DNA of 64,000 bases, taken from NCBI RefSeq assembly GCF_900637855.1, contig NZ_LR134440.1, positions 124,001-188,000 of the forward strand. The letters run 5' to 3'. The notes under the pieces were generated by a model, which was not told where the DNA came from, ran no database searches, and saw only the letters and a list, made by a program, of their open reading frames with translations. Source of the DNA: Neisseria animaloris. Lineage in GTDB: Bacteria > Pseudomonadota > Gammaproteobacteria > Burkholderiales > Neisseriaceae. Position 1 is the stretch's first letter, and each line of letters starts with the position of its first letter. Position numbers and translations under genes: made by a program. Positions 32,047 through 47,480 of this stretch are shown piece after piece.

Positions 32047-33852
32047 ATGTCTAACTCAATGAAAAATATTAGAAACTTTTCCATTATCGCCCACATCGAC
32101 CACGGCAAATCCACACTGGCCGACCGCTTTATTCAATATTGCGGCGGCTTGGAAATGCGAGAAATGAGCACGCAGGTGCTGGACTCGATGGATATTGAAA
32201 AAGAGCGCGGCATTACCATCAAAGCGCAAACCGCCGCCCTGAACTATAAAGCGCGCGACGGGCAAACCTATCAGCTCAACCTGATCGACACGCCCGGACA
32301 CGTCGACTTTTCCTACGAAGTTTCCCGCTCGTTATCTGCTTGCGAAGGCGCACTTTTGGTGGTGGACGCTTCGCAAGGTGTGGAAGCACAAACCGTGGCC
32401 AACTGCTACACTGCGATTGATTTGGGCGTGGAAGTGGTACCCGTGCTGAACAAAATCGATTTGCCTGCCGCCGACCCCGACCGCGTGGCGCAGGAAATCG
32501 AAGACATCATCGGCATCGATGCCGTCGGCGCGGTAACCTGCTCCGCCAAAAGCGGCTTGGGCGTGGAAGACGTGTTGGAAGAAATCGTAGCCAAAATTCC
32601 TGCTCCCGAAGGTGATGAAGAAGCATCTTTAAAAGCCATGATTATCGACTCTTGGTTTGATAATTATGTCGGCGTGGTGATGCTTATCCGCATTAAAGAC
32701 GGCCGTCTGAAACTGAAAGACAAAGTTCAGTTTATGAGCACCAAAGCGGAAACCCAAGTCGAGCAACTGGGCGTATTCACGCCTAAATCGGTGCAGAAAC
32801 AAGAATTAAAAGCCGGCGAAGTAGGCTTCCTGATTACCGGCATCAAAGAATTGAATGCTGCCAAAGTTGGCGACACCATTACCTTGGCAGCCAATCCTGC
32901 CGAAAAAGCTCTGCCTGGTTTCCAAGAGGTTCAATCGCAGGTATTTGCCGGTTTGTATCCGGTGGAAAGCCACGATTACGAAGCCTTGCGCGACGCTTTG
33001 GAAAAACTGCAATTAAACGACGCTTCGCTGAAATTCGAGCCGGAAGTTTCCCAAGCCTTGGGTTTCGGCTTCCGCTGCGGCTTCTTGGGGCTGTTGCATT
33101 TGGAAATCGTGCAGGAGCGCTTGGAGCGCGAATTCGATATGGACTTGATTACCACTGCGCCGACGGTGGTATATGAAGTATTGCTGAAAAACGGCGAAAA
33201 AATCGAAGTGGAAAACCCGTCCAAACTGCCGGATGTCGGTTTGATTGATACCATTTTCGAGCCGATTATTACCGCTACTATTTTGGTGCCGCAAGAATAT
33301 GTGGGTGCTGTGATGACTTTGTGTAACCAAAAACGCGGTGTGCAGAGAAACATGCAATACATGGGTCGGCAAGTGATGCTGACTTATGATCTGCCCATGA
33401 ACGAAGTAGTGATGGACTTTTTTGATAAGTTGAAATCCACTTCGCGCGGTTATGCTTCGTTAGACTACGAATTCAAAGAATTCCAAGCAGCCGATCTGAT
33501 TAAGCTGGATATCATGGTCAACGGCGAAAAAGTCGATGCCTTGAGCCTGATTGTCCACCGCTCCAATGCCGTGTTCCGCGGCCGCGAACTGGCGGCGAAA
33601 ATGCGCGAACTGATTCCGCGCCAGATGTTCGATATTGCCGTGCAAGCGGCAATAGGCAGCCAGATTATCGCCCGCGAAACCGTGAAAGCCCTGCGTAAAA
33701 ACGTATTGGCCAAATGTTACGGCGGCGATATTACGCGTAAGAAAAAACTTCTTGAAAAACAGAAAGCCGGTAAACGCCGTATGAAGCAGGTCGGCAATGT
33801 GGAAATTCCGCAGAGCGCGTTCTTGGCTATTTTGCAGGTTGGGGATAAATAA
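32047..33852 (+). CDS. lepA: elongation factor 4 (LepA) GTPase
   Basis: A ribosome-associated translational GTPase. The 601 residues show the G-domain motifs AHIDHGKST (P-loop), [18 protein letters not shown] and NKIDLPAAD. Domains II, III and V and the LepA-specific C-terminal domain (ending [22 protein letters not shown]) follow. The ATG at 32047 has AAAAGAG upstream; a second in-frame ATG at 32059 corresponds to the usual [14 protein letters not shown] start, so the first four residues are uncertain. The lepB start overlaps its stop by one base, the common lepA-lepB arrangement. Confidence 0.97.
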
Positions 33853-34838
33853 TGAGTAAAACATTGATACTGGGCGCAGTTGCCGCTCTGATTATCGGTT
33901 TGGTGCTGTTTGCCGGAAGTAATAAGCAGCGCGAAGAAAACGGTGAGTGGAGTAATTCGCTGCAATGGGGCTATCTGCTGATGATGATAGGTGCGTTCGG
34001 CATATTGTCGGCATTCATGAGTTTCACTGCCGTTTTGCTGATTTTCGTGCTGTTTACCGGTGTGGTTTGGATTATCCATAAAGGCCGTCTGAAAAAGCAG
34101 GCGGGAAGTGTGGAAAGTAATCATTTTACCGATTATATGGGCGGGTTTTTCCCGATTATTCTGGTGGTATTCGTATTGCGTACTTTTATCGGCGAACCGT
34201 TCCAGATTCCTTCCAGTTCGATGCGCCCCGGTTTGGTAGTCGGCGATTTTATTTTGGTAAATAAGTTTGCCTACGGCATCCGCACGCCGATTATCAATAA
34301 CGTTTTGATTCCGGTGGGCAGCGTGGAACGGGGCAATGTTGTGGTGTTCAATTATCCTGAAGATACATCCATCAATTACATCAAGCGTGCCGTCGGTTTG
34401 CCGGGCGATTTGGTGGAATATAAAGATAAGGTGTTGAGTGTTAACGGGAAAGTAGTAGAGGATCACTCCGTCGGCGAGCAAAGCTATACGGAAAATACCC
34501 GCCAGTACGGTTCCCTCACCGTTCATGCCGAAGCATTTAAGGAAACACTCGGTTCACACCAGTTTGAAGTGTTGAAAATTCCGGAACAGCCCAGCTTCCT
34601 GCCGCAAGGCGTGCGTCCTGAGTTCGCCCACCGCCAGAATTGCGAGTATGCGCAGGACGGATCGTGGTTCAGATGTGTTGTGCCCGAAGGCCATTATTTT
34701 ATGATGGGCGATAACCGCGATAATAGTGAAGACTCGCGTTATTGGGGTTTTGTCAGCGATAAGCTGATTGTCGGCAAGGCTTTCTTTATTTGGATGAATT
34801 TCGGTGATATGAGCCGTATCGGTATGAAAATCCGATAG
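33852..34838 (+). CDS. lepB: signal peptidase I
   Basis: An inner-membrane serine protease that cleaves signal peptides of exported proteins. The 328 residues have an N-terminal helix (4-22), a second pair of helices (39-75) and the catalytic region: Ser123 in PSSSMRPGLVVGDF and Lys178 in YIKRAVGLPGD. The family boxes GDNRDNSEDSRYWGF and the C-terminal FWMNF follow. Ser-Lys spacing of 55 is the same as in E. coli. A DUS-matching stretch inside the gene (about 34082) encodes KGRLKK. It is translationally coupled to lepA and ends at a strong DUS terminator. Confidence 0.97.
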   Translation: MSKTLILGAVAALIIGLVLFAGSNKQREENGEWSNSLQWGYLLMMIGAFGILSAFMSFTAVLLIFVLFTGVVWIIHKGRLKKQAGSVESNHFTDYMGGFFPIILVVFVLRTFIGEPFQIPSSSMRPGLVVGDFILVNKFAYGIRTPIINNVLIPVGSVERGNVVVFNYPEDTSINYIKRAVGLPGDLVEYKDKVLSVNGKVVEDHSVGEQSYTENTRQYGSLTVHAEAFKETLGSHQFEVLKIPEQPSFLPQGVRPEFAHRQNCEYAQDGSWFRCVVPEGHYFMMGDNRDNSEDSRYWGFVSDKLIVGKAFFIWMNFGDMSRIGMKIR

Positions 34839-34854
34839 TTGGATCTGTCTTGAT

Positions 34855-34892
34855 GAGGCCGTCTGAAAAAGGTTTTCAGACGGCCTTTTTTA
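34855..34892 (+). terminator. DUS-pair terminator of lepA-lepB
   Basis: GAGGCCGTCTGAAAA and TTTTCAGACGGCC with a tiny loop and a run of T residues. Confidence 0.8.
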
Positions 34893-34940
34893 TGGGTAGG
34901 GGGATATGGCTGCGAAAAGCGCCGGTTTATCCGTTATCCA

Positions 34941-34969
34941 TTGAAAATAAACAATAATCAGCGCATAAT
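34941..34969 (+). promoter_or_regulatory. sigma70 promoter of argD with an overlapping dyad
   Basis: TTGAAA (34941-34946), 17 bases, CATAAT (34964-34969). The -10 is overlapped by the dyad AATGA-CTC-TCATT (34967-34979). Within the window 34964-34982 about 13 of 19 bases match a Fur consensus, so a repressor site is possible. Confidence 0.5.
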
Positions 34970-34998
34970 GACTCTCATTTTTTGAAAAAGGAATACCC

Positions 34999-36186
34999 AT
35001 GCAAAACTATCTGACTCCCAATTTTGCTTTCGCTCCCGTTATTCCCGATCACGCCTCCGGCAGTCGGGTGTGGGATAGTGAAGGGAGGGAATACATTGAT
35101 TTGGCAGGTGGTATTGCGGTAAATGCGTTGGGGCACTGCCACCCCGTATTGGTTAGGGCATTAACCGAGCAGGCGGGAAAATTGTGGCATATCTCCAATA
35201 TCTACACTACCGAACCCGCACAAAAACTGGCAAAAAAGCTGACTGAGCATACTTTTGCCGAGAAAGTGTTTTTTTGCAATTCCGGTGCGGAAGCCAATGA
35301 AGCGGCGTTAAAACTGGCACGCAAATATGCCCGCGATCATTTCGGCGAAGGTAAAAACGAAATCATCGCCTGCATTAACGGTTTTCACGGGCGCACATTG
35401 TTCACGGTTTCCGTAGGCGGCCAGCCGAAATACAGCCAAGATTTCGCTCCTTTGCCGCCTGCCATTTCCCATGTGCCGTTTAACGATGTCAAAGCATTGT
35501 CCGAAGCGGTCAGCGAGCGAACTTGCGCAGTTATCCTCGAACCGATACAAGGCGAAAGCGGTGTTTTGCCGGTTGATGCCGAATTTTTGCACACTGCGCG
35601 CCGATTATGTGATGAAAACCATGCTTTGTTGATTTTGGATGAAGTGCAAACAGGCATGGGGCGCACGGGCAAATTATTTACTTATGAACATTACGGCGTT
35701 ACGCCCGATATTCTTACCAGCGCCAAAGCACTCGGCAGCGGCTTTCCGATTGGTGCGATGCTGACGACCGATAAAATCGCTGCGGCTTTTACTCCGGGAA
35801 CGCACGGCACCACTTTTGGCGGAAACCCACTGGCATGTGCCGTTGCCGGAAGCGCTTTTGATGTGATTAATGCGGCGGATACGTTGGAAAACGTTCATCA
35901 GCAAGGAGAAAAGCTAAAGGCCGTCTTAAAAGATTTGGGTGATGAAACAGGCGTGTTTAAAGAAGTTCGCGGTATGGGGTTGCTGGTAGGCTGTGTTTTG
36001 GCGGACGAATATGCAGGCCGTGCCGGAGAGTTGATACAAGAAGCGTTGAAACATGGCTTGATGATTTTAGTGGCCGGCGGAAATGTTATCCGCTTGGCTC
36101 CCAGCTTGTTGTTGAATGACGAAGATAGGGAAGAAGGAATACGCCGCCTGCGTTTGGCGGTATCGTCGTGGCTGGGGAAGCAGTAG
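34999..36186 (+). CDS. argD: acetylornithine aminotransferase
   Basis: A PLP-dependent class III aminotransferase of arginine (and possibly lysine) synthesis, converting N-acetylglutamate semialdehyde to N-acetylornithine. The 395 residues include FFCNSGAEANEAALKLAR (phosphate binding), FHGRTLFTVS, LILDEVQTGMGRTGK with Asp214, and the PLP lysine at about 243 in SAKALGSGFP. AAAAAGGAAT precedes the start at good spacing. It is a single gene, with its own promoter upstream and no co-directional gene behind it. A degraded IS5-type element begins 38 bases after its stop. Confidence 0.95.
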   Translation: MQNYLTPNFAFAPVIPDHASGSRVWDSEGREYIDLAGGIAVNALGHCHPVLVRALTEQAGKLWHISNIYTTEPAQKLAKKLTEHTFAEKVFFCNSGAEANEAALKLARKYARDHFGEGKNEIIACINGFHGRTLFTVSVGGQPKYSQDFAPLPPAISHVPFNDVKALSEAVSERTCAVILEPIQGESGVLPVDAEFLHTARRLCDENHALLILDEVQTGMGRTGKLFTYEHYGVTPDILTSAKALGSGFPIGAMLTTDKIAAAFTPGTHGTTFGGNPLACAVAGSAFDVINAADTLENVHQQGEKLKAVLKDLGDETGVFKEVRGMGLLVGCVLADEYAGRAGELIQEALKHGLMILVAGGNVIRLAPSLLLNDEDREEGIRRLRLAVSSWLGKQ

Positions 36187-36224
36187 TCGGTTTATTGCCT
36201 TGATATGTAAATAATTAAGATGTT

Positions 36225-36672
36225 GAGACCTTTGCAAAATAGCTCTTTACCCAACAGCTGAAATTCAAACACGGGATTTCGGCTGTTTTTACTCCAATTA
36301 TCCCCTTTATCCTTTCTCAGATACCCAATCATAGGGTATCCCTACCGCTTTTCAGACGGCCTCAGGCGCACGTAGCCTGTTGGCTGCTTTCAGTAGGTTC
36401 AAATAAATCGCTTTTACTTTGTGCCGTCATTTTGCTCAGATCAAAATGATCAGTGGACGGTTGAGCTAGTCGCTAATGGAGCGGATTCTCTGACGGTTCA
36501 AGTAATGTTCGACGGGGTTTTCAATCGATCACTTGCTCCAGTTTCAATAAAGGGGGGGAGCGGTCGATGTGTTTGGCAATCATGGCCTGTATGGTTTGCT
36601 GAAAGAAGATGCTCATGGAAACTCCCCTAAATATCTTAAGTAGCGAATTCAGGAGAGTTTTGCAACGGTCTC
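36225..36672 (-). mobile_element. IS5-family derivative, internally deleted (copy 1)
   Basis: About 448 bases bounded by inverted ends GAGACCTTTGCAAAA and (complement) GAGACCGTTGCAAAA, the neisserial IS1106/IS1655-type termini. The left 200 bases are nearly identical to copy 2 at 43871-44405, including a DUS near 36350. Only the ends of the transposase gene remain. No matching target duplication is seen at the flanks. The two copies face the same way and bracket the tbp-slam operon. Confidence 0.75.
36361..36616 (-). pseudogene. IS5-type transposase remnant (copy 1)
   Basis: The N-terminal piece begins at 36616 (MSIFFQQTIQAMIAKHIDRS... to LEQVID) and runs into a stop at 36521-36523. The C-terminal piece, near 36361-36420 on the same strand, encodes KVKAIYLNLLKAANRLRA and a stop. 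The middle of the transposase, with its catalytic acidic residues, is missing, so it cannot be active. Confidence 0.75.
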
Positions 36673-36801
36673 TATCTATGTGATATATCTGCGCCTGTTG
36701 AGCTGCTATGCCTTGAACGGCACCCGCATTCGGCAAGTTTTCAAGGCCGCGGCCTTTATTCGTGCTATTGGTTATCAATCAGTTTGGCCGTTTAGCAGCT
36801 G
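36673..36801. other. gap between IS copy 1 and slam
   Basis: Nothing recognised; it contains a GC-rich AAGGCCGCGGCCTT palindrome at about 36742-36755. Confidence 0.3.
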
Positions 36802-38292
36802 TTAAAATGTTTTGGAAAATTCTATAAACATATTCTGTTTGCGGTAATCATAGAGAAACACATTACTTTTGTTGCGGGTATGCTGCCAGGTAATCCGCGG
36901 GGTAATGCCCCAGAAATGGATGTTGCGGTGCCAGACGGAAAGGTGTAGCTGTAAGGTACGGTCTTTTCGGATTTTTAGAATCGGCCAAGGCATGGGAGCA
37001 TGGTAAGTTTGTTTGCTCCATGCGGCGCGGGTGCGGGTGCTGAAGCCTTTGGGCCATTCCTGTATCCAGCCCAGCGATGCCGTCCATTGGTGGTTGCTGT
37101 TGTCGGGGTCGTACAGGGTTTCGCGCTGTAAATCGAAACCTCCGAACCATGCTTGGCGCGGGCTGGATTGGTAAATCAATGTGTGGCCGATTTGGCGGCG
37201 GATGCCGTCGAAGCGGAAGCGGTGTTCGTGATTGATTTTTTCGATGCGGGCGTATTGGTTCAGTCGCCAGCGGCGATTGAGGCGGGAATTTAGGCTGAGG
37301 GTAGTACCGAAGCTCTCCGAAAAAGGCTTCAGGCCGCTTTCTTCTTTATGACCCTGCCACCAGCGTTTGGAAACGAATGGCATGATTTCGGCATCAAAAC
37401 GTGCGTTGCGGTAGCCGATACCTGCGGCGGTATTGACCAGCAGGTCGTTGTATTGTTTGTGGGCGGGGTAGTGTTTGCCGTGGATGTCGGTGCTGAATTT
37501 GGCGGTGAAGCCGTGCGGCAGTGCCCAGTCTTTTTCTGCGCCGAGATGATAGCTGATGCCATGGGCACTTTCGGGTTGCGATTGGGTGTCGAGGTTGCCT
37601 TGCTGTTTGACGATAGGGGCGTTGTTGATATTGGGTTCGTAGGCGTAGTTGGCTCCGCCGCTGAATTGCCAGCGGTGGTGTTGTCTGAGTTCGTCGAGAA
37701 AGCGGTTAATGGCTTGTTTTTCGGGTTCGGGTAGATTGGATTGGGCGAGAAGTTTGGTAAATTGGTCTTTGGCGGCGAGGTTTTGGCGGTTGTAGAACAG
37801 GGCGATTGCCAGATACATGCGGATCACGTCTAACTCGGGTTTTTCGGCAATCAGGTTGCGGAGTCCGGCTACGGCTTCACCAAAGCGGCCTTGGTGCATG
37901 GCAAGTTTGCTTTCGGCCAATTGCAAAAGGATAGGGTCGCGGTTGCTTGAGGGCAGTTTGCGGTAAACGGGCAGTAATACACCGATGCCGTCAAAGTCGT
38001 TGCGCAATACGCTTTTATCCAGCAGCAGGTTGAGCAGTTGCGGCCGGGCGAGCAAAGTGGCTTCGTCGATATCCTGTATGGTAGCGGACGCTGCTTCGGA
38101 GGTTTGCCATACGGGCTGTTCGGATACCAGTTCGGGCAGCTCGGGTTGGATGGGTTCGGGTTTTTGTTCAGGGGTGAGCGTTTGTGCCGTTGTGGCGTAT
38201 GTGAACAGCAACAAGGCAGCGGTGAGGCTCGTTTTGGCGAAACTCGCAAAGCTCGCTTTCAGACGGCCTGAACGGTGTGTGTTGGTTTGCAT
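36802..38292 (-). CDS. Slam-family surface lipoprotein assembly modifier
   Basis: An outer-membrane translocon that moves lipoproteins such as TbpB, LbpB and fHbp to the cell surface. The 496 residues start with a signal peptide (hydrophobic run TSLTAALLLFTYATTAQ, cleavage near 36). TPR-like helices follow (about 75-200; LLLDKSVLRNDFDGIGVLLPVYRKLP, AESKLAMHQGRFGEAVAGLR), then a C-terminal beta-barrel of about 14 strands ending in the outer-membrane signature FIEFSKTF. It lies 133 bases behind the receptor gene, on the same strand, with a DUS dyad between. Its natural client is the lipoprotein at the head of this operon. An extended DUS repeat lies within the signal-peptide codons. Confidence 0.88.
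   Translation of the reverse strand: MQTNTHRSGRLKASFASFAKTSLTAALLLFTYATTAQTLTPEQKPEPIQPELPELVSEQPVWQTSEAASATIQDIDEATLLARPQLLNLLLDKSVLRNDFDGIGVLLPVYRKLPSSNRDPILLQLAESKLAMHQGRFGEAVAGLRNLIAEKPELDVIRMYLAIALFYNRQNLAAKDQFTKLLAQSNLPEPEKQAINRFLDELRQHHRWQFSGGANYAYEPNINNAPIVKQQGNLDTQSQPESAHGISYHLGAEKDWALPHGFTAKFSTDIHGKHYPAHKQYNDLLVNTAAGIGYRNARFDAEIMPFVSKRWWQGHKEESGLKPFSESFGTTLSLNSRLNRRWRLNQYARIEKINHEHRFRFDGIRRQIGHTLIYQSSPRQAWFGGFDLQRETLYDPDNSNHQWTASLGWIQEWPKGFSTRTRAAWSKQTYHAPMPWPILKIRKDRTLQLHLSVWHRNIHFWGITPRITWQHTRNKSNVFLYDYRKQNMFIEFSKTF
38237..38270 (-). repeat. extended DUS context repeat inside slam
   Basis: GCGAAACTCGCAAAGCTCGC leading straight into TTTCAGACGGCCTG; compare 4831-4863. Here it forms part of the Slam signal-peptide coding sequence. 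Confidence 0.5.
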
Positions 38293-38374
38293 GGTATGTG
38301 ATGTCGTGAAATAAGATAAATGGCGTAATAAACCGCAGGTCGGTTCGATATAGTGTGTGCTGTTGCACGGCTCT

Positions 38375-38401
38375 GGCCGTCTGAATGTTTTTCAGACGGC
38401 C
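38375..38401. terminator. DUS pair between the receptor and slam genes
   Basis: GGCCGTCTGAA and TTCAGACGGCC with a 5-base loop, 24 bases after the receptor stop. It may limit readthrough into slam. Confidence 0.5.
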
Positions 38402-38424
38402 TTCATGTGTTTGAAGCCGGTTAG

Positions 38425-41205
38425 TTAGAACTTCATTTCAAAACCTACGGTAATGTTGCGGCCGGGTGCGGCAAACTGCTTGTAGTCGGAACCGGGTACT
38501 TTTTGCTGCGACAGCGAGTTGATGGAGCTTTGGCGTACGGTTTCCCAAGTCAGATAACGGTAGTTCATGGCGTTATAGATGCCGGCACGCAGGGTGGCTT
38601 TTTTCCACGGGCGGTAGTAGCCGATCAAATCGACGGTTGTCCACGGTTTGGTTGCTGCTTTGGTAACGGCGCGGTTGATGGTAGGGCCGGTATCCGAATA
38701 GGCTTTGCTGATGAGTTCCTGCGGGTTTTTGCCGCGCGAATGTATCCAGTTCATCGACATTCCCCATTTTTCGGAAGGGGCGTCGTAATTCAGCCCGAGC
38801 ACATAGCGCGACGGCTGGATGGTTTCGAGCGGATAGTCGGCCAGCCAAGTGTAGCGTTCGGGGTGGTTGTTAAACAGGCGTTTGGCCTTGATGCGGTTGT
38901 AGGCCATGTTTAACGACAAGCCTTCGGGCAGTTTGCTCCACATGCCGTTCAAGTCTATCGACGAACGGATATTGATACCGTTCAGATCGGCGTTTTGAAG
39001 GTTGAAGTTACCGATATTTTGGTAGTTGTTTTTGTCGGTTTTGGTGATGGCATAGGCAATCAGGTCGCGGTAGCGGCTGTTGAACATGCTCAGTTCGATA
39101 TTGCCGAAGTTGCCTTTGAATGTCAGGCCAAATTCTTGGTTGAACGATTTTTCCGGCTCCAAATCGGCAACGTAGTGGACTTTGCTGTCGCGCGGGATGC
39201 CCGGCACGTTGTAACCGTAAAGCTCTTGGAAGCTGGGTACACGGAAGCCGTTGGAAACGCGATAGGAAACCGCCCACCTGCTGTTGGGTTTGAGAACGAG
39301 GCCCGCATTCCATGAGCGGTTGGTGTAGTTTTTGTCTTTGATGGCGACATCTTCGGAACGGAAACTGTGGTTGTCTAAGCGTAAGCCGAGGCCGAGATCG
39401 ATATATTTGCCCAAGGCCATGTTGTCGCGCAGGGCGAGATAATAGCTGTTGCCCTTAATCGGTTTGCGCGAGCAGGTTTCGATCTTCCAATCGATACAGG
39501 GATATACATCAGTTATAACGGTACCTAAGTCTTTATAAATGTCGATGACGCGCTTTTGCCCGTTGATAACGCGGGTTTCCGTACCTATTCTGACTTGGTT
39601 TTTCTGTGCAGAGGTTTCGCGGAAAGCTTTGGCAAAGCTCGAATCGAAATGGTCATAGCCGGCTGCAATTTGAACGTCGTGTTTGCTGCGCCCCCACTGC
39701 CATTTTTTGTTCCATTTGGTGTTGAACAACGTATGGTTTTCGGTGTAGTCGATTTGCTCTTCACTTAAAAAAGAACCGGGTTTGTCTTTGCTGGGGGCGC
39801 AGTTGAGCGTTGTGCTGTAATCCGGATAGCGGGAACAGTGGGCGTGAACGGTTCCGGTGTCGGTTTTAATGTTTTGGCGGTCGATGCTCAGCTCTAAAGC
39901 GTCGGCCCAAGTTCCGCCTTCTTGAGGTTTGTAACGGTAGGCGATGCCGTTACGCATTTTGCTGTGCCGCTCTTGCAAGAAACGGGCGCGCGACCACAGC
40001 AGCTTGGAGTAGCCTTCGCGGAGGTCGTTGCGCCAAACGCCGTTATCGTTCAGCTCGAAGAGGGGTTTGGATGAAGGCGGGTAGTAGGAAGGGTAGCGCA
40101 TGTCGCGACTGTCGTAGTTCTGTTTGGTGTGTTCCGTCAGCCAGCCGATATGATGCTGCGGAGAAATATGGTAGCCCAAACGAGCCAGCCACGAACCGCT
40201 GCGGTATTCCATCGGATTGGGGCGGATGCGGTTGGCACCGGTGTATTCTTTAGCCGACACGGTTTCTTTTTTATGCCGCATGGCGTGGCGGCGCTGGGCT
40301 TCTTCTTCGGGCGTGAAAGGCTCTGTGCGGCTTTGGGGTTGCCATAAGTCGGGGCGGGTGGGGGCGGATTTGTGGCGGATAACATCCGGCTCGTCTTCAA
40401 AACGGAACATATTGTCGCTCAAAAGACCCGGTGCTCCGCGCAGGTCGTATTTGTCTTCGTAAACATCTTGTTTGTAAAACGATTGGTTGGCGTTGCCCGC
40501 ATCTTTGTGGATGTCAATTTCGTTGCCTTTGCGGTGGGTGTATTGCAGCAAACCTTCAAAACCTTGATAGCTGAATGCACCGCCGAGGGTTTGGGCGAAT
40601 CGTTTGTCTTTGCTGCTGTAAACGGATTTGCTCGTCAGCCCCCATTTTTCGCCGTCTTGAAGAAAATCGCCGACGTTTTTGGTGCGGTAGTTTACCGAAC
40701 CGCCCAAGCTGCCGCTACCGGATTCAACGCTGTTGCTGCCTTTGCTGATTTCTACGGCAGATACGTTTTCATATTCGATTTCGTTCATGGAACCGCTGCC
40801 GCCGCTGGATGAAGTGGTATCGGCATACGATTGCAGTTGAGGGATGCCGTCTACCGATACCTGTACGCGGTTTTTGTCCACCCCGCGGATGGAAAATCCG
40901 CTGCTACCGCCCCGGCCTTGTTCGACCACGGAGATACCCGGGTCGTAGCGTACCAAGTCGCGGATATTCAGTACTTGTTCTTTTTCGAGCTGTTCGGCGT
41001 TTTTAACCACTTTGCCCAAGCCGGTAACTTCTTGGGTTTTGCGGTTGATTTTTTTGGGGGCGGTTACATACACGGTGTCGAGGTCTACCGTGCTTTCGGC
41101 TTGAGCTTGATCGGCAGCATACAGGTTGCCGGAAAATGCGGTAAAACATAGGGATAATGCGGTTACGATGATTTTTTGCTGTGATGAGGAATGAGTAGTA
41201 AACAT
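38425..41205 (-). CDS. TbpA/LbpA-family TonB-dependent transferrin or lactoferrin receptor
   Basis: A 926-residue outer-membrane receptor that strips iron from host transferrin or lactoferrin and imports it with TonB energy. The signal peptide ends at about LYA (30), followed by a TonB box (DLDTVYVTA). The plug domain has NIRDLVRYDPGISVVEQGRG, GFSIRGVDKNRV and ENVSAVEISKGSNS. A 22-strand barrel follows, closing with the terminal Phe of VGFEMKF. Some stretches resemble LbpA more (EYTGANRIRPNPMEYRSGSWLARLGY, SNGFRVPSFQEL), others TbpA, so the ligand is unresolved. It is second in the operon, 125 bases after the lipoprotein gene. An in-frame ATG at 41205 gives a good secretion signal. Confidence 0.9.
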   Translation of the reverse strand: MFTTHSSSQQKIIVTALSLCFTAFSGNLYAADQAQAESTVDLDTVYVTAPKKINRKTQEVTGLGKVVKNAEQLEKEQVLNIRDLVRYDPGISVVEQGRGGSSGFSIRGVDKNRVQVSVDGIPQLQSYADTTSSSGGSGSMNEIEYENVSAVEISKGSNSVESGSGSLGGSVNYRTKNVGDFLQDGEKWGLTSKSVYSSKDKRFAQTLGGAFSYQGFEGLLQYTHRKGNEIDIHKDAGNANQSFYKQDVYEDKYDLRGAPGLLSDNMFRFEDEPDVIRHKSAPTRPDLWQPQSRTEPFTPEEEAQRRHAMRHKKETVSAKEYTGANRIRPNPMEYRSGSWLARLGYHISPQHHIGWLTEHTKQNYDSRDMRYPSYYPPSSKPLFELNDNGVWRNDLREGYSKLLWSRARFLQERHSKMRNGIAYRYKPQEGGTWADALELSIDRQNIKTDTGTVHAHCSRYPDYSTTLNCAPSKDKPGSFLSEEQIDYTENHTLFNTKWNKKWQWGRSKHDVQIAAGYDHFDSSFAKAFRETSAQKNQVRIGTETRVINGQKRVIDIYKDLGTVITDVYPCIDWKIETCSRKPIKGNSYYLALRDNMALGKYIDLGLGLRLDNHSFRSEDVAIKDKNYTNRSWNAGLVLKPNSRWAVSYRVSNGFRVPSFQELYGYNVPGIPRDSKVHYVADLEPEKSFNQEFGLTFKGNFGNIELSMFNSRYRDLIAYAITKTDKNNYQNIGNFNLQNADLNGINIRSSIDLNGMWSKLPEGLSLNMAYNRIKAKRLFNNHPERYTWLADYPLETIQPSRYVLGLNYDAPSEKWGMSMNWIHSRGKNPQELISKAYSDTGPTINRAVTKAATKPWTTVDLIGYYRPWKKATLRAGIYNAMNYRYLTWETVRQSSINSLSQQKVPGSDYKQFAAPGRNITVGFEMKF

Positions 41206-41330
41206 GATGTTTTTTTGCAGATTGATTTATGATTGTTGTCGGTAACGGTGGATGAGGCCGTCTGAAAACTCGGGCAGGTAAACGGCAGGTGGCGGATAAA
41301 CCGCCTCTCCTGCTGCGCTTAACCTATGGT

Positions 41331-43379
41331 TTATTGCTGTTTTTGTGCGCCGAATACTGCACCTGCACGCACGTCTGTACCGTTTTTGTCTTTACCCGGG
41401 GTATTGTAGATCAGCGTACCACCTAGTTCGCGTGCGCCGGGGCCATAGAAACCGCCTTCCACTTTGGCATCCTGAATGTTGACGGAATAACCGCCGTTTT
41501 GATTGCCGGGATCGAAGGGGAAATTGCCGTCGGTATAGCCGCGTCCTTTAAAGCCGCTGCCGTTGATATCAGCCTCGATATTGAATACTTTGCGGCTGTC
41601 TGAGCCGATTAATGCACCGCTTAACTTTTTGCTACCGAAGTCCACATCGAATGATGAAATGCCGGCGCTGTTGTTCGAACCTATGTTCATCATGGTGGCA
41701 TTATGGCCGTAATCGGGGTTACCGAATGCGTTGCGTTTGGGCGGTTCTACTTTGATGAAACCGGTCCAGCTGCCTAAGTATTTGACTTTTCCTGACTGGG
41801 GTAGATCGGCTATGGGGGTTCTTTCGCCTTGCAGATAGAGGGCATGTACGGGGTCTTGCCCTGCTTTTTCCTGTAACACGAATTGGCCGAAGCGCAGATA
41901 GCTCAGATTGCTGCAACACACTTGTACGAATTCGCGGGCTTTGCCTTCGCTGTTCTTCGATAGGGTGATGGTGTGGGTTTTGCCTGCTTTATCGGTGCTT
42001 ATTTCGGCTTTAGCGTTTTTCAGCATTTTGTCAAGCTCGGCTTTTTCCAAGTCGAAAATTTTGTTGCCGAAGCGCAGTTTCATGGCATAGCCGAAATTGG
42101 GCAAAGGTTTGCGCTCGGCTTGGGTAAGGTGTTGGCGGACTTCAGGCTTTTTTTCTTCTTCTGCAAGCTCATTCGGCAAAGTCTTCTTATCCGAATTGGC
42201 TGTGTCGGCATCGTTGCTTTCTTTGTCTTCGTCGTTTTCGTATTCCACCTCAATCCGTTTGGGAACGGTAAGATAGAAAGCATCTAATAATGCATTGGTT
42301 TTTTTGGGTTGCTTCGGATTGTCGCCGTTGCGTTTAGCACCGAACACGACAAACAAAGAGTTGTCGTTGGCTAAAAATTTACCGGCAAGTTCTTGGGCTT
42401 GAGGGCCGTAGAAACCTCCTTCGAGCAGGTTGGAGTTGGCACCGAAAAACGCTTTGTCCAAGGTTGAAGAGTTGTTGTTGACGTTAGACAGAGCTTTGCC
42501 GGTGAAGCGGTTGCCGTTAAGTTGCGCTTCGATATCGTACATTTTCTTTTTGGGTTCGGTACGTGATTGATAATGAAGTGCACCGGTCATGCGCTTATTG
42601 GCGAAATCGACAGTAAAGTTAGACGTATATTTTGCGTCGGTGGCCCCACTTGATTGGCTGGTGGCACTGGCAATATCGCCGTCGCCTTTTTGGCTGTTAA
42701 AACCATTGCCGGTGCCAAAGCCTTTTCCTTTACCTTTTTTTACATCGCTCATGAAATACCATTCGCCCCGATAATTCACATTGTTATCGACAGGAAGGGC
42801 GGCTGAGGCAGAGGTACCATGATAAAAGGTGTAAACGTTCCAACCTTCCTTGAAGGTGTGCGATCTCAGTTCGCCGGCTTGATCTCTAACTTTTTCTTCT
42901 ATGATTTTGGGGTAGTCCACGGTAAGGTGGCCGAAACGTATGTATTGATATTTGCCTTCTTGCTGTTTGCCTGTATGGTAAACCTTATTCGCGCCGCCGT
43001 TGTCTGGATCGTTTTGCATCTCCATCAGCTTGGGAATAGTCAAGTCTGCATCGTTGATAGCTTCGATCTGGTTGGGATCAAGCGGAATATAGATTTCCGC
43101 TTCGGTGGGCTTGCCTGAAGCATCCAGCAGCGGTTTACCGGTTTTATCGTATTTGGCTTGATTGCGGCGCAGACCTTTCATCACAAAACCTGCTGCAGGT
43201 TGTTTTAAGGCTTCCTGCTCTTCCGGGCTTTGGCGGGGTTCAGGTGCTTTTTCTACTTTGGGCGGTTCGGGCAGGGGAGGCGGTTCGGGATTGACGCGTA
43301 AGGTATCGAAGCTGCCGCCTGCACAAGCGGTAAGCATGACGGTAAGACTGCAAAGTGAGAATGTTTTGAGCTGCTGCAT
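41331..43379 (-). CDS. TbpB/LbpB-family surface lipoprotein
   Basis: A surface-exposed bilobed lipoprotein that captures iron-loaded host transferrin or lactoferrin for the TonB-dependent receptor. I place the start at 43379, where AAGGAAAC precedes the ATG, giving 682 residues. A signal peptide with lipobox LTAC (Cys19) is followed by a Pro/Glu-rich anchor (EPPPLPEPPKVEKAPEP). Each lobe has handle and barrel signatures: YRGEWYFMSD and EGGFYGPQAQELAGKF in the N-lobe, VQVCCSNLSYLRFG, YLQGERT and GGFYGPGARELGG in the C-lobe. An acidic stretch (EYENDEDKESNDADTANSD) joins the lobes. The CCSNL motif is TbpB-like; LbpB's long acidic loops are absent. The longer frame to 43475 lacks a ribosome-binding site. 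Confidence 0.88.
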   Translation of the reverse strand: MQQLKTFSLCSLTVMLTACAGGSFDTLRVNPEPPPLPEPPKVEKAPEPRQSPEEQEALKQPAAGFVMKGLRRNQAKYDKTGKPLLDASGKPTEAEIYIPLDPNQIEAINDADLTIPKLMEMQNDPDNGGANKVYHTGKQQEGKYQYIRFGHLTVDYPKIIEEKVRDQAGELRSHTFKEGWNVYTFYHGTSASAALPVDNNVNYRGEWYFMSDVKKGKGKGFGTGNGFNSQKGDGDIASATSQSSGATDAKYTSNFTVDFANKRMTGALHYQSRTEPKKKMYDIEAQLNGNRFTGKALSNVNNNSSTLDKAFFGANSNLLEGGFYGPQAQELAGKFLANDNSLFVVFGAKRNGDNPKQPKKTNALLDAFYLTVPKRIEVEYENDEDKESNDADTANSDKKTLPNELAEEEKKPEVRQHLTQAERKPLPNFGYAMKLRFGNKIFDLEKAELDKMLKNAKAEISTDKAGKTHTITLSKNSEGKAREFVQVCCSNLSYLRFGQFVLQEKAGQDPVHALYLQGERTPIADLPQSGKVKYLGSWTGFIKVEPPKRNAFGNPDYGHNATMMNIGSNNSAGISSFDVDFGSKKLSGALIGSDSRKVFNIEADINGSGFKGRGYTDGNFPFDPGNQNGGYSVNIQDAKVEGGFYGPGARELGGTLIYNTPGKDKNGTDVRAGAVFGAQKQQ

Positions 43380-43695
43380 TTTATTGTTTCCTTTTATCGT
43401 ATCAATAGTGTTCTGTAAGAATAGCTTTTTGAATATGTTCTTAAGGCTGAACAGGCATGCTGATTCCTTACGCACAACATCTGTTAAAGCATCAGGATGT
43501 TTTGTTATGTATTTGATAATATTTTTATTTTATGCAAAACAGTTTTTTATCAAAGAGAATGCTTCTCTTAAAGAATCAGTAAAACGGGGAGGGGTAATAC
43601 CCATGGGTGGTTTGGCCGGTGCGTTAAAAAGCACTTGTTATGTGAAAAATTTACGTTTAATGAAACGAAAGTAAATCATTACAATTTATTTCGTT
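43380..43695 (-). promoter_or_regulatory. long 5' leader of the tbp operon
   Basis: About 315 bases lie between the predicted transcription start and the lipoprotein ATG. They contain no convincing separate gene. An in-frame open stretch runs back to 43475, and a weak second Fur-like stretch (TTGATAATATTTTTATTTT) is near 43512. The length would allow RNA-level control. Confidence 0.35.
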
Positions 43696-43702
43696 TTTTA
43701 AA

Positions 43703-43731
43703 ATATTAAACCAATATGTAATTTATGTAAA
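43703..43731 (-). promoter_or_regulatory. sigma70 promoter of the tbpB-tbpA-slam operon
   Basis: On the minus strand TTTACA (43731-43726), 17 bases, TAATAT (43708-43703). The -35 is overlapped by the Fur box at 43729-43749. Confidence 0.65.
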
Positions 43732-43749
43732 TAATAATCATTATTATTT
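43729..43749 (-). promoter_or_regulatory. Fur box
   Basis: A 21-base near-perfect palindrome: half-sites AAATAATAAT and ATTATTATTT around one central base. It overlaps the -35 of the minus-strand promoter, the position expected for iron-dependent repression. Confidence 0.7.
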
Positions 43750-43870
43750 TTATTAAAGCGTAAAGTGAGAATGCCAAACTGGTTGAGGTTTCCTGAAACC
43801 GGAATTTGTGAGGACTGAGTTTTGCCGAAGGAATATATTGCTTGAAAGAGGCCGTCTGAACAGATTGACT

Positions 43871-44405
43871 GAGACCTTTGTAAAATAGCTCTTTACTCAA
43901 CAGCTGAAATTCAAACACAGGATTTCGGCTGTTTTTACTCCAATTATCCCCTTTATCCTTTCTCAGATACCCAATCACAGGGTATCCCTACCGCTTTTCA
44001 GACGGCCTCAGACGCACGTAGCCTGTTGGCTGCTTACAACAGGTTTAAACAAATCGCTTTTACTTTGTGCCATCACTTTGCTCCGGACAAAATAAGCTGC
44101 CTGGGCATAGCGGAATTTACGGTGGAGCGTACCGAAGTTTTTTTCCACCACATAACGGGTTTTCAACAGGTGTTCGTTGCGGCTGGTTCGGGCTTTGTCA
44201 GTGGGCGGTAGCGGGTTCTCTGACGGTTCAGATAATGTTCCATTGGTTGCCGGTTGATCATTTGCTCCAGTTTCAATAAAGGGGGATAGGTCGATGTGTT
44301 TGGCAATCATGGTTTGAGCGGTTTGCTGAAAGAAGGTGCTCATGGAAAATCCCCTAAATATCTTGGTAAGGAATTTAGGGGATTAGGGGAATGTTGGAAG
44401 GTCTC
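43871..44405 (-). mobile_element. IS5-family derivative, internally deleted (copy 2)
   Basis: About 535 bases from GAGACCTTTGTAAAA to a decayed right end (complement begins GAGACCTTCC). The left part matches copy 1 at 36225 almost base for base, with a DUS at about 43997. A slightly longer transposase remnant survives. With copy 1 it encloses the tbp-slam operon in direct orientation. Confidence 0.75.
44008..44343 (-). pseudogene. IS5-type transposase remnant (copy 2)
   Basis: An open frame of 111 residues starts at 44343 with the transposase N-terminus (MSTFFQQTAQTMIAKHIDLS). After a short unrelated joint it continues as the transposase C-terminal segment (TSRNEHLLKTRYVVEKNFG, then LHRKFRYAQAAYFVRSKV). 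About two thirds of the normal protein, with the catalytic core, is deleted, and the last codons are shifted relative to copy 1. The open frame could still make a short peptide, but not an active transposase. Confidence 0.75.
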
Positions 44406-44434
44406 AGGCCGTCTGAAAACTTTTCATACGGCCT
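44406..44434. terminator. DUS-pair stem-loop between IS copy 2 and the YkvA gene
   Basis: AGGCCGTCTGAAAA faces TTTTCATACGGCCT; the right copy has one changed base (T for G). It lies 13 bases past the YkvA stop. Confidence 0.6.
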
Positions 44435-44447
44435 TTGCTACCAAGCC

Positions 44448-44813
44448 TTATCTGTTGAACAGTTTCTCGGTGGCAATACGTGCTTTTTCGCGGATTTCTT
44501 CAGTTAAATAACTTTTAACCTGGGTGTAAACCAAAGTAATGACTGCGATGTCGTCGCTGAATCCCAAAGGCCCGAGCAAATCGGGAATACTGTCTATCGG
44601 GCTGAGGAAGTAAACCAAAGCTCCGAGGATAATGACTTTGGCACGTTTGGGTGTAGTGGGTGCTTTAAACAGAAAATACAGCGCATACAGTTGACGGACT
44701 ACCGGTGCGCCGAGCTTACCGGCAAAACGACCGAGTTTGCGCAGAAAACCGGGATCGTCTAATTTTCGGCGACGGAATTTGGGGATGAACTCTTCAGGAG
44801 ATGGTCTGTGCAT
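44448..44813 (-). CDS. YkvA-family (DUF1232) membrane protein
   Basis: A 121-residue protein whose C-terminal half carries the DUF1232 signature: VIILGALVYFLSPIDSIPDL then GPLGFSDDIAVITLVYTQVK. This is one membrane-embedded hydrophobic stretch with the conserved SPIDxIPD motif. The N-terminal half is basic (EEFIPKFRRRKLDDPGFLRK). The biological role of the family is not established. It is a single gene on the minus strand, ending near a DUS dyad and with a short IS-like repeat upstream of its start. Confidence 0.85.
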   Translation of the reverse strand: MHRPSPEEFIPKFRRRKLDDPGFLRKLGRFAGKLGAPVVRQLYALYFLFKAPTTPKRAKVIILGALVYFLSPIDSIPDLLGPLGFSDDIAVITLVYTQVKSYLTEEIREKARIATEKLFNR

Positions 44814-44850
44814 ATTAAAACCCTCGTGGTGTGTAATATGTAATACGTTT

Positions 44851-44947
44851 GAAACGTCGCAAAACTTTTCTTGTAGCGCATTGAAGTGTTGTCAGCGGTT
44901 GCTATACCTTAAACTACTTCCGCCTCGAGGAATTTTGCAAAGGTTTC
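44851..44947. repeat. short IS-end-like inverted-repeat element (MITE candidate)
   Basis: A 97-base segment with ends GAAACGTCGCAAAA and (complement) GAAACCTTTGCAAAATTCC. These resemble the GAGACCTTTGCAAAA termini of the IS5-type elements nearby. No coding remains; it may be a minimal non-autonomous derivative. Confidence 0.4.
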
Positions 44948-45105
44948 GTTCCGTACATGGGGAAAGGTTGCCGTAATTGCAAGTGAAAGTATATTTGACA
45001 GTCAGTTAAAGAAAGAAAAAGCGCAAGACGGTATGCTTTACATAATGAAGGCTGCAACCGCATATACATCGGATGGGCTTTGGTGCACAAGAAACAGATG
45101 TAGAA
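44948..45105. other. rest of the gap between ykvA-like gene and mdh
   Basis: AT-rich sequence without a recognisable gene; nothing else seen apart from the DUS pair that follows. Confidence 0.3.
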
Positions 45106-45164
45106 AGGCCGTCTGAAAAAGCGGACAGTGCGATAAATGCCTTGGGCTTGTTTTCAGACGGCCT
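45106..45164. terminator. widely spaced DUS pair after mdh
   Basis: AGGCCGTCTGAAAA and TTTTCAGACGGCCT, 31 bases apart, 19 bases beyond the mdh stop on the minus strand. Confidence 0.5.
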
Positions 45165-45182
45165 TTTCGGGTTTTAAAAAGA

Positions 45183-46160
45183 TTACAGCAGGTGGGCAAC
45201 GCCTGCTTTTTCTTCTTCCAGTTCTTTCAACGTAATATTGATGCGCTCTTGGCTGAATTCGTCGATTTCCAAACCTTGAACCAGTTTGTATTCGCCATTT
45301 TCGCAAGTAACGGGGAAACCGAACATGGTGCCTTCGGGAATGCCGTAAGAACCGTCAGACGGAATGCCCATCGTTACCCATTTGCCGTTGGTGCCCAACA
45401 CCCAATCGCGAATATGGTCGATGGCGGCATTGGCAGCTGATGCGGCGGAAGACAGGCCGCGTGCTTCGATAATAGCCGCGCCGCGTTTGCCTACGGTAGG
45501 CAGGAATACATCGGCGTTCCATTCTTGGTCGCCAATCATATCTTTTACACTTTCGCCGTTAATGGTGGCGAAGCGGTAATCGGCATACATGGTGGGAGAG
45601 TGGTTGCCCCATACGCACAGTTTTTCAATTTCGGCCACAGGTTTGCCGGTTTTCTCGGCGATTTGGCTTAATGCACGGTTGTGGTCGAGGCGCAGCATGG
45701 CGGTAAAGTTTTTGGCAGGCAAATCGGGAGCCGATTTCATGGCGATGTAGGCATTAGTGTTCGCGGGATTGCCGACAACCAGCACTTTTACGTTACGGTC
45801 AGCAACCTTGTTCAGCGCTGCCCCTTGCACGGTAAAGATTTCTCCGTTGGCTTGCAATAAGTCGGCACGTTCCATGCCTTTACTACGCGGACGCGAACCT
45901 ACCAAAATGGCGATTTGGGCATCTTTAAACGCTTCTTCAGGATTATCGGTAGTGAACATGCCGGCCAGAAGCGGAAAAGCACAATCCTGCAATTCCATCA
46001 TTACACCTTTTACGGCATTCTGAGCTTGGGGCAAATCCAGCAACTGCAAAATAACGGGTTGGTCTTTACCCAGCATTTCACCGCTAGCGATACGGAACAA
46101 TAAAGCATAACCAATTTGACCTGCTGCACCGGTAACGGCAACGCGAACGGGTGTTTTCAT
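45183..46160 (-). CDS. mdh: malate dehydrogenase (NAD), type 2
   Basis: Oxidises malate to oxaloacetate with NAD+ in the TCA cycle. The 325 residues show the N-terminal Rossmann loop [31 protein letters not shown] (substrate Arg), [21 protein letters not shown] and the catalytic His in [12 protein letters not shown]. This is the cytosolic-like, roughly 325-residue form found in Thermus and many betaproteobacteria, not the 312-residue E. coli type. N. meningitidis is generally described as using the quinone-linked Mqo instead, so the gene marks a metabolic difference. AGGAGAA precedes the start. It is divergent from the sdh operon, with a 600-base gap. Confidence 0.95.
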
Positions 46161-46761
46161 ACCAAAATTCTCCTGAATTAGTTGTTTGTGTAAAGAAACG
46201 GTGTTCTGTTGGGAAGCATATTTTCAGACGACCTTAGTTAGCAAGAGCAGTCTTCATAAAACATTGAACGGATAAGTATGCTGTACGAAATATTTGGTTG
46301 TATGTGCAGTAAAACCGGCTTCCGCGTAGAAACCAAGCGTGGGAAACCATGCTACGGCATTTGTAATCATACCAAATTTATTGATAGGGGCAATATTATT
46401 TTGTAGTCGCTTGAAACTTTTCAAATGCAATAAGTCCATATCAATAAGTAAGTATCGGATATAACTATATTATATCGGAAAAAGCTGTTTCTTTTACCTG
46501 TATTTGAAGGTATTGGAAAAATGAATATCGCCTGTTTTTTGGAAAATAACCTGGCAAGGAAGCCGATGAAAGGCTCTTGATTTGTAAGTTTGGTGTTAAA
46601 TTTCATTAAAAAAACCGCTAAAGGGGCTATTCAATATTTGGCAAACCATGTAAATTATGTACTGAAGTAGTTTTGTGTAGCTTGATTTTTAATAAAGTTT
46701 AGGCAAAACACTTCTCGGTTTTGAGAATTTGAGAAAAATACTGTCGAAAGAGGATATTGAA
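46161..46761. other. 600-base divergent control region between mdh and sdhC
   Basis: AT-rich, with a single imperfect DUS (about 46224). It must hold the promoters of mdh and the sdh operon, but I could not choose convincing -35/-10 pairs. Short minus-strand frames at 46254-46439 and 46421-46606 look like chance. Confidence 0.35.
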
Positions 46762-47139
46762 ATGCAGACGAAACAGCGCCCTGTATTCCTTGAACTCCCC
46801 AATATCAGGTTGCCGATACCCGGGATTGTTTCCATTCTGCACCGCATCAGCGGGGTCATTTTGTTTGTGAGCCTGCCGTTATTGCTGTGCTTTCTTAGTG
46901 GCACGTTAAGTCGTGAAGCTGCATTTGAAACGTATCGTGCAGCTGTTTCCAACCCTTTTGTCAAACTTGCTTTAATCGGATTGCTTTGGGCCTATTTGCA
47001 CCATTTGTTGGCCGGCATCCGTTTTTTATTTTTAGACACACATAAAGGTTTGGAACTGCAAACTGCACGTACAACTGCGAAATTGGTATTTGTTGCAGCT
47101 TTGATTTTAACTGTCGCGATAGGAGCATGGTTATGGTAG
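46762..47139 (+). CDS. sdhC: succinate dehydrogenase cytochrome b556 subunit
   Basis: A membrane anchor of complex II, binding heme b and quinone with SdhD. The 125 residues have three hydrophobic helices and the N-terminal signature RPVFLELPNIRLPIPGIVSILHRISGV, with the Ser/Arg/His residues used by the family (HRISG). A second His motif is YLHHLLAGIRFL. The ATG at 46762 has AGAGGAT upstream; the frame extends a further 11 codons back without a ribosome-binding site. It overlaps sdhD by seven bases, the first of several coupled joins in the operon. The operon is a known target of the iron-responsive NrrF sRNA in N. meningitidis; I have not located such a site here. Confidence 0.93.
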   Translation: MQTKQRPVFLELPNIRLPIPGIVSILHRISGVILFVSLPLLLCFLSGTLSREAAFETYRAAVSNPFVKLALIGLLWAYLHHLLAGIRFLFLDTHKGLELQTARTTAKLVFVAALILTVAIGAWLW

Positions 47140-47480
47140 ACCGCAAATTGGCCGGTGCCCATTACGGCTTGCGTGATTGGGCGATGCAGCGAGCAACAGC
47201 CGTGATTATGCTGATTTATACCGTTGCATTTGTTATCTTTCTTTTGTCATTGCCCAACAATTATGAGTCTTGGCAAGTATTTTTCTCCCAAATTTGGGTG
47301 AAAGTATTTACCCAGGTTACTTTTATTGCCGTGCTCCTGCATGCTTGGGTAGGTATCCGCGATTTGTGGATGGACTATATCAAGCCGTTCGGACTGCGCT
47401 TGTTTTTGCAAGTGGCCACTATCGTTTGGCTGGTGTGCTGTTTAGTGTATTCGGTTAAAGTAATTTGGGGTATCGTATGA
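47133..47480 (+). CDS. sdhD: succinate dehydrogenase hydrophobic anchor subunit
   Basis: The second membrane subunit of complex II: 115 residues with three helices. It begins [23 protein letters not shown] and has the heme-ligand His in [19 protein letters not shown] choose the ATG at 47133 because GGAG lies seven bases upstream; the ATG at 47127 is too close to it. It overlaps the end of sdhC, and its stop overlaps the sdhA start as ATGA, so translation is coupled on both sides. Confidence 0.92.

Follow-up and report, generated by a model that had tools for sequence, protein, structure and literature searches.

An IS-bounded iron-piracy operon in Neisseria animaloris, probably carried in by a composite transposon that has since decayed

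RESULTS

We analysed a 64-kb stretch of the Neisseria animaloris genome (hereafter the window; the genome, G000, is a single contig of 2,338,721 bases), in which a minus-strand operon for a TbpB-type surface lipoprotein, a TonB-dependent receptor and the surface lipoprotein translocon Slam lies between two remnants of an IS5-family insertion sequence (IS). The unit at positions 36225-44405 is probably a composite transposon that brought in the operon and then decayed. Since argD and a ykvA-like (DUF1232) gene, which flank the unit here, are adjacent in a sister genome, and since the DNA that is extra in the window starts and stops at the outer ends of the two remnants, we infer that the module is an IS-bounded insertion. 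Its features and immediate borders are as follows.

36220-36224, no strand: ATGTT, the five bases next to the left IS on its outer side, placed as one copy of a 5-bp target repeat would be; aligns with AGGCC of the sister (L001:11221-11225)
36225-36672, plus strand: left IS5-family remnant, ~750 bp of its interior missing; transposase reads on the minus strand
36673-36757, no strand: right half of a miniature element of ~150 bp, similar to a miniature inverted-repeat transposable element; at the junction GGTCTC is followed directly by TATCT
36802-38292, minus strand: slam, surface lipoprotein translocon, 496 aa; PF04575 (E 1e-84) and PF24575 (E 3.5e-30)
38425-41205, minus strand: tbpA/lbpA-type TonB-dependent receptor, 926 aa; TIGR01776 at 1002 bits (cut-off 469), and receptor tree
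41331-43475, minus strand: tbpB-type surface lipoprotein; PF01298, PF17483 and PF17484, and NF041636 (slam_lipo) at 101.6 bits (cut-off 80)
43727-43745, no strand: Fur-box-like site upstream of tbpB, 15 of 19 positions agreeing with the presumed consensus
43763-43870, no strand: spacer between the module and the right IS, with only short matches elsewhere
43871-44405, plus strand: right IS5-family remnant, ~650 bp of its interior missing; transposase reads on the minus strand; contains a fragment matching NF033581
44406-44434, no strand: two DNA uptake sequences forming a hairpin behind argD; target of the insertion, unbroken in the sister (L001)

The unit is missing from the same site in a sister genome

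The comparison set consisted of 46 genomes of the genus (G numbers denote genomes and L numbers loci). With thresholds of E up to 1e-100 for argD and up to 1e-10 for the DUF1232 gene, argD was found in 42 genomes, the DUF1232 gene in 36 and both genes in 34. The two genes are neighbours in two of these 34 genomes, namely G000, with the module between them, and the sister genome G027 (Neisseria sp. MVDL19-042950, locus L001), where the matches are ~80 bp apart; in the remaining 32 they are separated by tens of kilobases or more, or are on different contigs. When window positions 33001-47500 were compared with L001 by BLAST, the flanks 33001-36220 (95.3% identity) and 44406-47494 (93.0%) met at L001:11221, and the DNA that is extra relative to the sister is 36221-44405, comprising the IS pair, its contents and a few bases before 36225. 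The site in the sister is an uninterrupted hairpin of two DNA uptake sequences with no trace of an IS. The original prediction for this stretch had proposed a search for an empty site between argD and the DUF1232 gene, which was positive in the sister, and had asked whether the module is present at this place in all relatives; in the other genomes with both genes it is not at this place.

The two remnants are siblings and both are dead

The remnants are in the same orientation, each internally deleted as predicted, and are recognizable by direct repeats, terminal repeats and deletions relative to full copies. Positions 36224-36447 and 43870-44093 form direct repeats of 224 nt with 93% identity, accompanied by more collinear pieces. 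Identical bases were counted at 357 of the 405 positions shared by the two remnants, with 210 of 229 in the left part and 147 of 176 in the right part, and the description of the remnants as nearly identical thus suits the left part and not the right. The terminal repeat GAGACCTTTGNAAAA occurs with two mismatches or fewer at 6 places in the window, compared with a mean of 0.66 and a maximum of 2 in 100 shuffles; three of these places are remnant ends (36225, 36672 and 43871) and three are outside the remnants. The fourth remnant end (GGTCTC, 44400-44405) degenerates further inward and was located by reading the sequence and not by the pattern. Outside the insertion, a lone IS-type end at 44933-44947 (GAAACCTTTGCAAAA, minus strand) is shared with the sister and is perhaps the trace of an older element.

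Membership of the IS5 family is indicated by the shared terminal repeats and, via full copies in other genomes, by an IS5-type transposase (a 335-aa frame in one G041 copy); the right remnant contains a fragment with a match to NF033581 (IS5 family transposase) at an E-value of 1.9e-6 but with 27.4 bits against a cut-off of 140. Both remnants carry a common 5-base deletion and a common 3-base insertion that are absent from all three full copies compared (from G041, G045 and G005), which argues that they come from one IS lineage. The large internal deletions, in an element of ~1200 bp, have different endpoints on both sides, and because the left copy retains bases that the right one has lost, neither deletion can be derived from the other; at the time of the unit's move, the two copies may both have been complete. 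Neither remnant encodes a working transposase and, because both IS copies are internally deleted, the composite would be a decayed and not an active one. The predicted mobility of the module is therefore supported as past movement; present transposition is not, as most of the transposase is missing from each remnant and no other copy was seen in G000 among the 40 of 908 candidates scored.

Two other origins of the arrangement were tried and rejected. A miniature element made of both remnants through one shared internal deletion is contradicted by the difference between the deletions, and the arrival of two unrelated ISs independently beside an older module is contradicted by insertion edges that are IS ends and by copies that are siblings.

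The same edges bear on minimal mobile elements, cassettes of the kind described for Neisseria (in the accessible text of PMC9778887 and PMC3898611) that are swapped between conserved neighbours by flank homology, with the IS copies as bystanders. The window resembles them in having horizontally acquired genes between conserved neighbours. Their edges are set by flank homology, whereas the window shows an IS end at either edge and IS copies that are siblings. No different cassette was seen at the argD-DUF1232 site, though that site is known from only two genomes, one filled and one empty. We consider such a cassette exchange highly improbable.

Some full copies of the IS family abut uptake sequences

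Matches to the remnants were found in 33 of the 46 genomes, including G000, with 13 candidates scored per genome, and many of them appeared as two pieces of a full element of ~1.2 kb. For the target-repeat count we took 15 IS loci and left out 4 without both ends. An exact 5-bp direct repeat flanks 7 of the resulting 11 full copies and is absent from 4 (L097, L101, L103 and L108); when the right flanks were shuffled among the copies, 7 was never reached in 10000 trials (mean 1.3). Four full copies (L093, L095, L101 and L103) abut an uptake sequence, with GACGGCCT followed directly by GAGACC. The target in the window is like these, in that the hairpin of the sister opens with AGGCC, the reverse complement of GGCCT, and the flanks of the unit, AGGCC on the right and ATGTT on the left, stand in the exact register of a 5-bp repeat. 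Amongst plasmid records, matches to a full IS copy were obtained only in two chromosome-size gonococcal records, with no annotated feature listed.

The main rival to composite transposition starts from a single resident IS behind argD, with which transforming DNA carrying the operon and a related IS would have recombined, leaving an IS on each side with no transposition of the unit. Such recombination yields identical outer edges, finds no obstacle in an imperfect 5-bp repeat and suits a genome rich in DNA uptake sequences, and IS-IS recombination has been described for Neisseria (accessible text of PMC3454330). It requires, however, a prior IS at the site and a circular or otherwise double-ended donor, and no genome with an IS alone was seen amongst the two that have the site. 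We regard this route as a possible but rather unlikely one.

A miniature element beside the left IS probably records an earlier location

The piece just inside the left IS is the right half of a miniature element with similar ends, to which 6 of the 46 genomes, including G000, have a match. In G010 (L126), a small element bounded by these IS-type ends lies inside a miniature element of this kind, flanked on each side by TATCT as a perfect 5-bp repeat. The left IS of the window likewise meets TATCT on the inside, whereas on the outside it borders argD spacer instead of the rest of the miniature element. This IS had therefore probably inserted into a miniature element at another site before moving together with the sequence on its inner side. 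The nesting at TATCT in L126 is also a useful example of target choice for this IS family in its own right.

A close copy of the operon in another species

The genome G041, of another species, has the operon at a different locus, with identities to G000 of 97% for the receptor, 91% for Slam and 80% for the lipoprotein, and the DNA homology between the two genomes spans 36802-43762 with 89% identity. Synonymous divergence (dS) between G000 and G041 is 0.154 for tbpA, 0.255 for slam, 0.633 for tbpB and 2.0 for argD; for lepA and lepB there was no match in the G041 stretch fetched for this comparison. The operon values are far below that of argD, which argues for horizontal transfer of the operon. 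Nonsynonymous divergence (dN) is well below dS in all three genes, and the operon therefore appears to have been retained under purifying selection.

Between G000 and the sister, seven flanking genes gave dS values of 0.12 to 0.28, and the distance between the two IS copies of the window is 0.129. Assuming that the copies were identical at insertion and have evolved at a synonymous rate, the move would postdate the split from the sister. Alternatively, the unit predates the lineage split and has disappeared from the sister, either excised precisely or replaced through transformation by an empty allele. One sister represents the empty state, and since no outgroup has argD beside the DUF1232 gene, the direction of change is not polarised by a third genome. 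Loss through IS-IS recombination would nevertheless leave an IS in the uptake-sequence hairpin, which in the sister is uninterrupted, and for tbpA and slam the G000-G041 divergence is about that between G000 and the sister and not older. We consider loss in the sister improbable, and it would alter only the date of the move.

At the G041 locus, the shared segment is preceded by a truncated IS of this family (72% identity to a full copy), which stops 121 bases upstream of it and again lies beside an uptake-sequence hairpin; no comparable IS was seen on the Slam side. The neighbours of the G041 operon, a DASS-type transporter gene and a nuclease gene, are never adjacent in other genomes with both, and lie on separate contigs in the fragmented ones. 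The transporter (L084 4203-5671), whose frame is apparently split, is 96-98% identical to its counterparts in G000, G027 and G045, with ArgD differing by 24%, and may be transferred DNA itself. Besides the intact operon, G041 has two further TbpBA-type loci (L085 and L086) with broken receptor frames. No relative of the receptor was found in viral contigs. A receptor match was present in 66 plasmid records, all with less than 60% identity, and the only two that cover at least 80% of the query are the chromosome-size gonococcal records also matched by the full IS copy.

Weighing composite transposition

Composite transposition is favoured because the edges of the unit are IS ends, the flanks are in target-repeat register, the target is of a type used by the family and foreign sequence is found on the inner side of the left IS only. 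In a donor Neisseria, one IS copy would have entered the miniature element beside slam and another would have inserted upstream of tbpB. Transposition by the outer ends of the IS pair would then have placed the 8.2-kb unit in the hairpin of uptake sequences behind argD, and separate deletions would later have stripped the interior of each IS, fixing the operon in place.

Several observations weigh against this sequence of events. The flanking 5-mers are identical at 2 of 5 bases, an agreement attainable by chance alone; a target-site duplication around the unit was therefore not upheld and we do not count it as shown, since the flanks match in register only. The remnant copies differ at 12% of positions, more than expected of a very young composite. 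That only these two IS copies were found in G000 is in favour of the composite, but the DNA search scored 40 of 908 first-look candidates, so divergent copies in this genome could be missed. A donor carrying both IS copies was not found, nor did the spacer at 43763-43870 have a counterpart in the 46 genomes beyond matches of ~20 to 30 bases. The empty site rests on one sister genome, which itself has two weak remnant matches (best E-value 5.2e-28). The IS beside the G041 operon stands on one side only and belongs to a different sub-lineage, and when the stretches fetched for 11 other receptor loci were scanned (L087 being a short contig), such an IS was present at that one and absent from 10. 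Being a single case from a different sub-lineage, the IS link at G041 is suggestive only.

The reading of the stretch as a decayed composite transposon or IS-bounded cassette, put forward in the original prediction, is thus supported by the empty site and by its breakpoints at the outer remnant ends, with the target duplication not proven.

The operon and its receptor clade

The genes are ordered tbpB-type lipoprotein, TonB-dependent receptor and slam on the minus strand. All three frames were open when the open reading frames of the window were checked and, with the strong family matches, they bear out the operon as first described. The lipoprotein frame opens at a GTG at 43475 and has an alternative ATG at 43379 with a lipobox next to it; because the G041 relative aligns only from residue 33, the ATG is the likelier start of tbpB. 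The features of a Slam-lipoprotein pair are present, namely a SlipAM barrel and a TPR domain in the translocon, and TbpB-like domains and a lipobox in the client. Scored against what we take to be the Fur-box consensus, the site at 43727 is the best on the plus strand of the 64-kb window, and the matching stretch of G041 reaches 11. The operon presumably acts as other systems of these families do: Slam delivers the lipoprotein to the cell surface, where it binds an iron-loaded host protein, and the TonB-dependent receptor takes up the iron, probably under Fur control.

Trees were built from 16 receptors, 16 lipoproteins (window included in each) and 9 Slam proteins. Frames of up to 800 aa were left out of the receptor tree (two pieces each of L085 and L086, L092 and the 688-aa second TonB gene of L089), as were frames of up to 500 aa from the lipoprotein tree (L085 and L092). 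In the receptor and lipoprotein trees the window groups with G041, G030, G033 and G017 (support 100/100), the lipoprotein clade also including the second tbpB of G041 (L086), and in the Slam tree it groups with G041, G030 and G033 (support 99/100). For reference, one G019 receptor matches solved TbpA chains and one G019 lipoprotein matches solved LbpB chains. Both G019 receptors fall outside the window clade, and a grouping with TbpA or LbpA references was not obtained. By its position in the tree, the window receptor is therefore assigned to a third, uncharacterised clade beside TbpA and LbpA, being neither of them.

No other TbpB was found in G000, and its only other receptor match covers residues 15-230; the transposon pair therefore seems to be the only TbpA/TbpB-type pair in this genome. 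The sister has a different lipoprotein-receptor pair at another locus (L150 7803-12392). A more general view, in which complete iron-piracy units of the third receptor clade travel between Neisseria species as IS-bounded composite transposons, one of which gave this lineage its only such pair with the sister keeping a different pair elsewhere, is put forward tentatively, and we hold it to be somewhat doubtful.

Some further loci were noted. The nuoN neighbour in the sister is a TbpBA-type pair, and G000 holds other genes on that side of nuoN. In L164 (G000:C1:1600000-1619500), from ~8.6 kb onwards, a gene run like a conjugative type IV secretion cluster adjoins nuoN, beside a stretch reading like part of a tRNA gene; these names were given by eye from translations, with no family search. 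L159 of G002 has a tandem pair of Slam-type genes behind a diverged TbpBA-type pair.

A Slam-type gene adjoins receptor genes at 6 of the 18 receptor loci fetched. In the accessible text of PMC5449769, a lipoprotein gene accompanies Slam in the clusters of 185 of the 353 Slam-related genes examined, and the position of Slam beside its client, which the original prediction had contrasted with the separate slam1 of N. meningitidis, is on these counts ordinary.

DISCUSSION

The unit shares with composite transposons two sibling IS copies in direct orientation, a cargo between them and edges at the outer IS ends. The cargo of such transposons is usually resistance genes. Here it is an iron-piracy operon, both ISs are dead and the target repeat is not proven. 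A close counterpart is the gonococcal block 2 flanked by IS1106 (PMC3454330, accessible text), where IS5-family copies likewise flank a moved block, with the likeness at family level; that block differs in being ~68 kb long and in having moved within one chromosome. The same text offers composite-transposon-like excision of the block as an alternative to recombination.

As for the cargo, TbpBA and LbpBA systems share with the window a lipoprotein and a TonB-dependent receptor of the TIGR01776 subfamily, but the window receptor is in a supported clade separate from the TbpA and LbpA references. In Slam-linked TbpB clusters, such as those of Moraxella catarrhalis and Haemophilus influenzae, slam adjoins a TbpB-type client as it does here, whereas IS flanks, unlike in the window, are not mentioned in the accessible text (PMC5449769). 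Both tbpAB and lbpAB are reported in N. lactamica and N. cinerea (accessible text of PMC2911385).

In the open-licence literature, as far as its text was accessible and with subscription papers outside the scope, no report was found of a composite transposon with a transferrin-type receptor in Neisseria. The spread of such receptor genes in this genus is usually attributed to transformation and homologous recombination. The original observation is confirmed and its interpretation partly supported, the main inference included. We describe the stretch as an IS-bounded, horizontally acquired iron-piracy operon, and its best reading is a fossil composite transposon, a known kind of mobile element with an unusual cargo. 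Transferrin- and lactoferrin-type receptors help decide the hosts on which a Neisseria can live. The edges at IS ends, the empty site in the sister and the close copy in another species suggest that this three-gene unit, its translocon included, arrived as one package.

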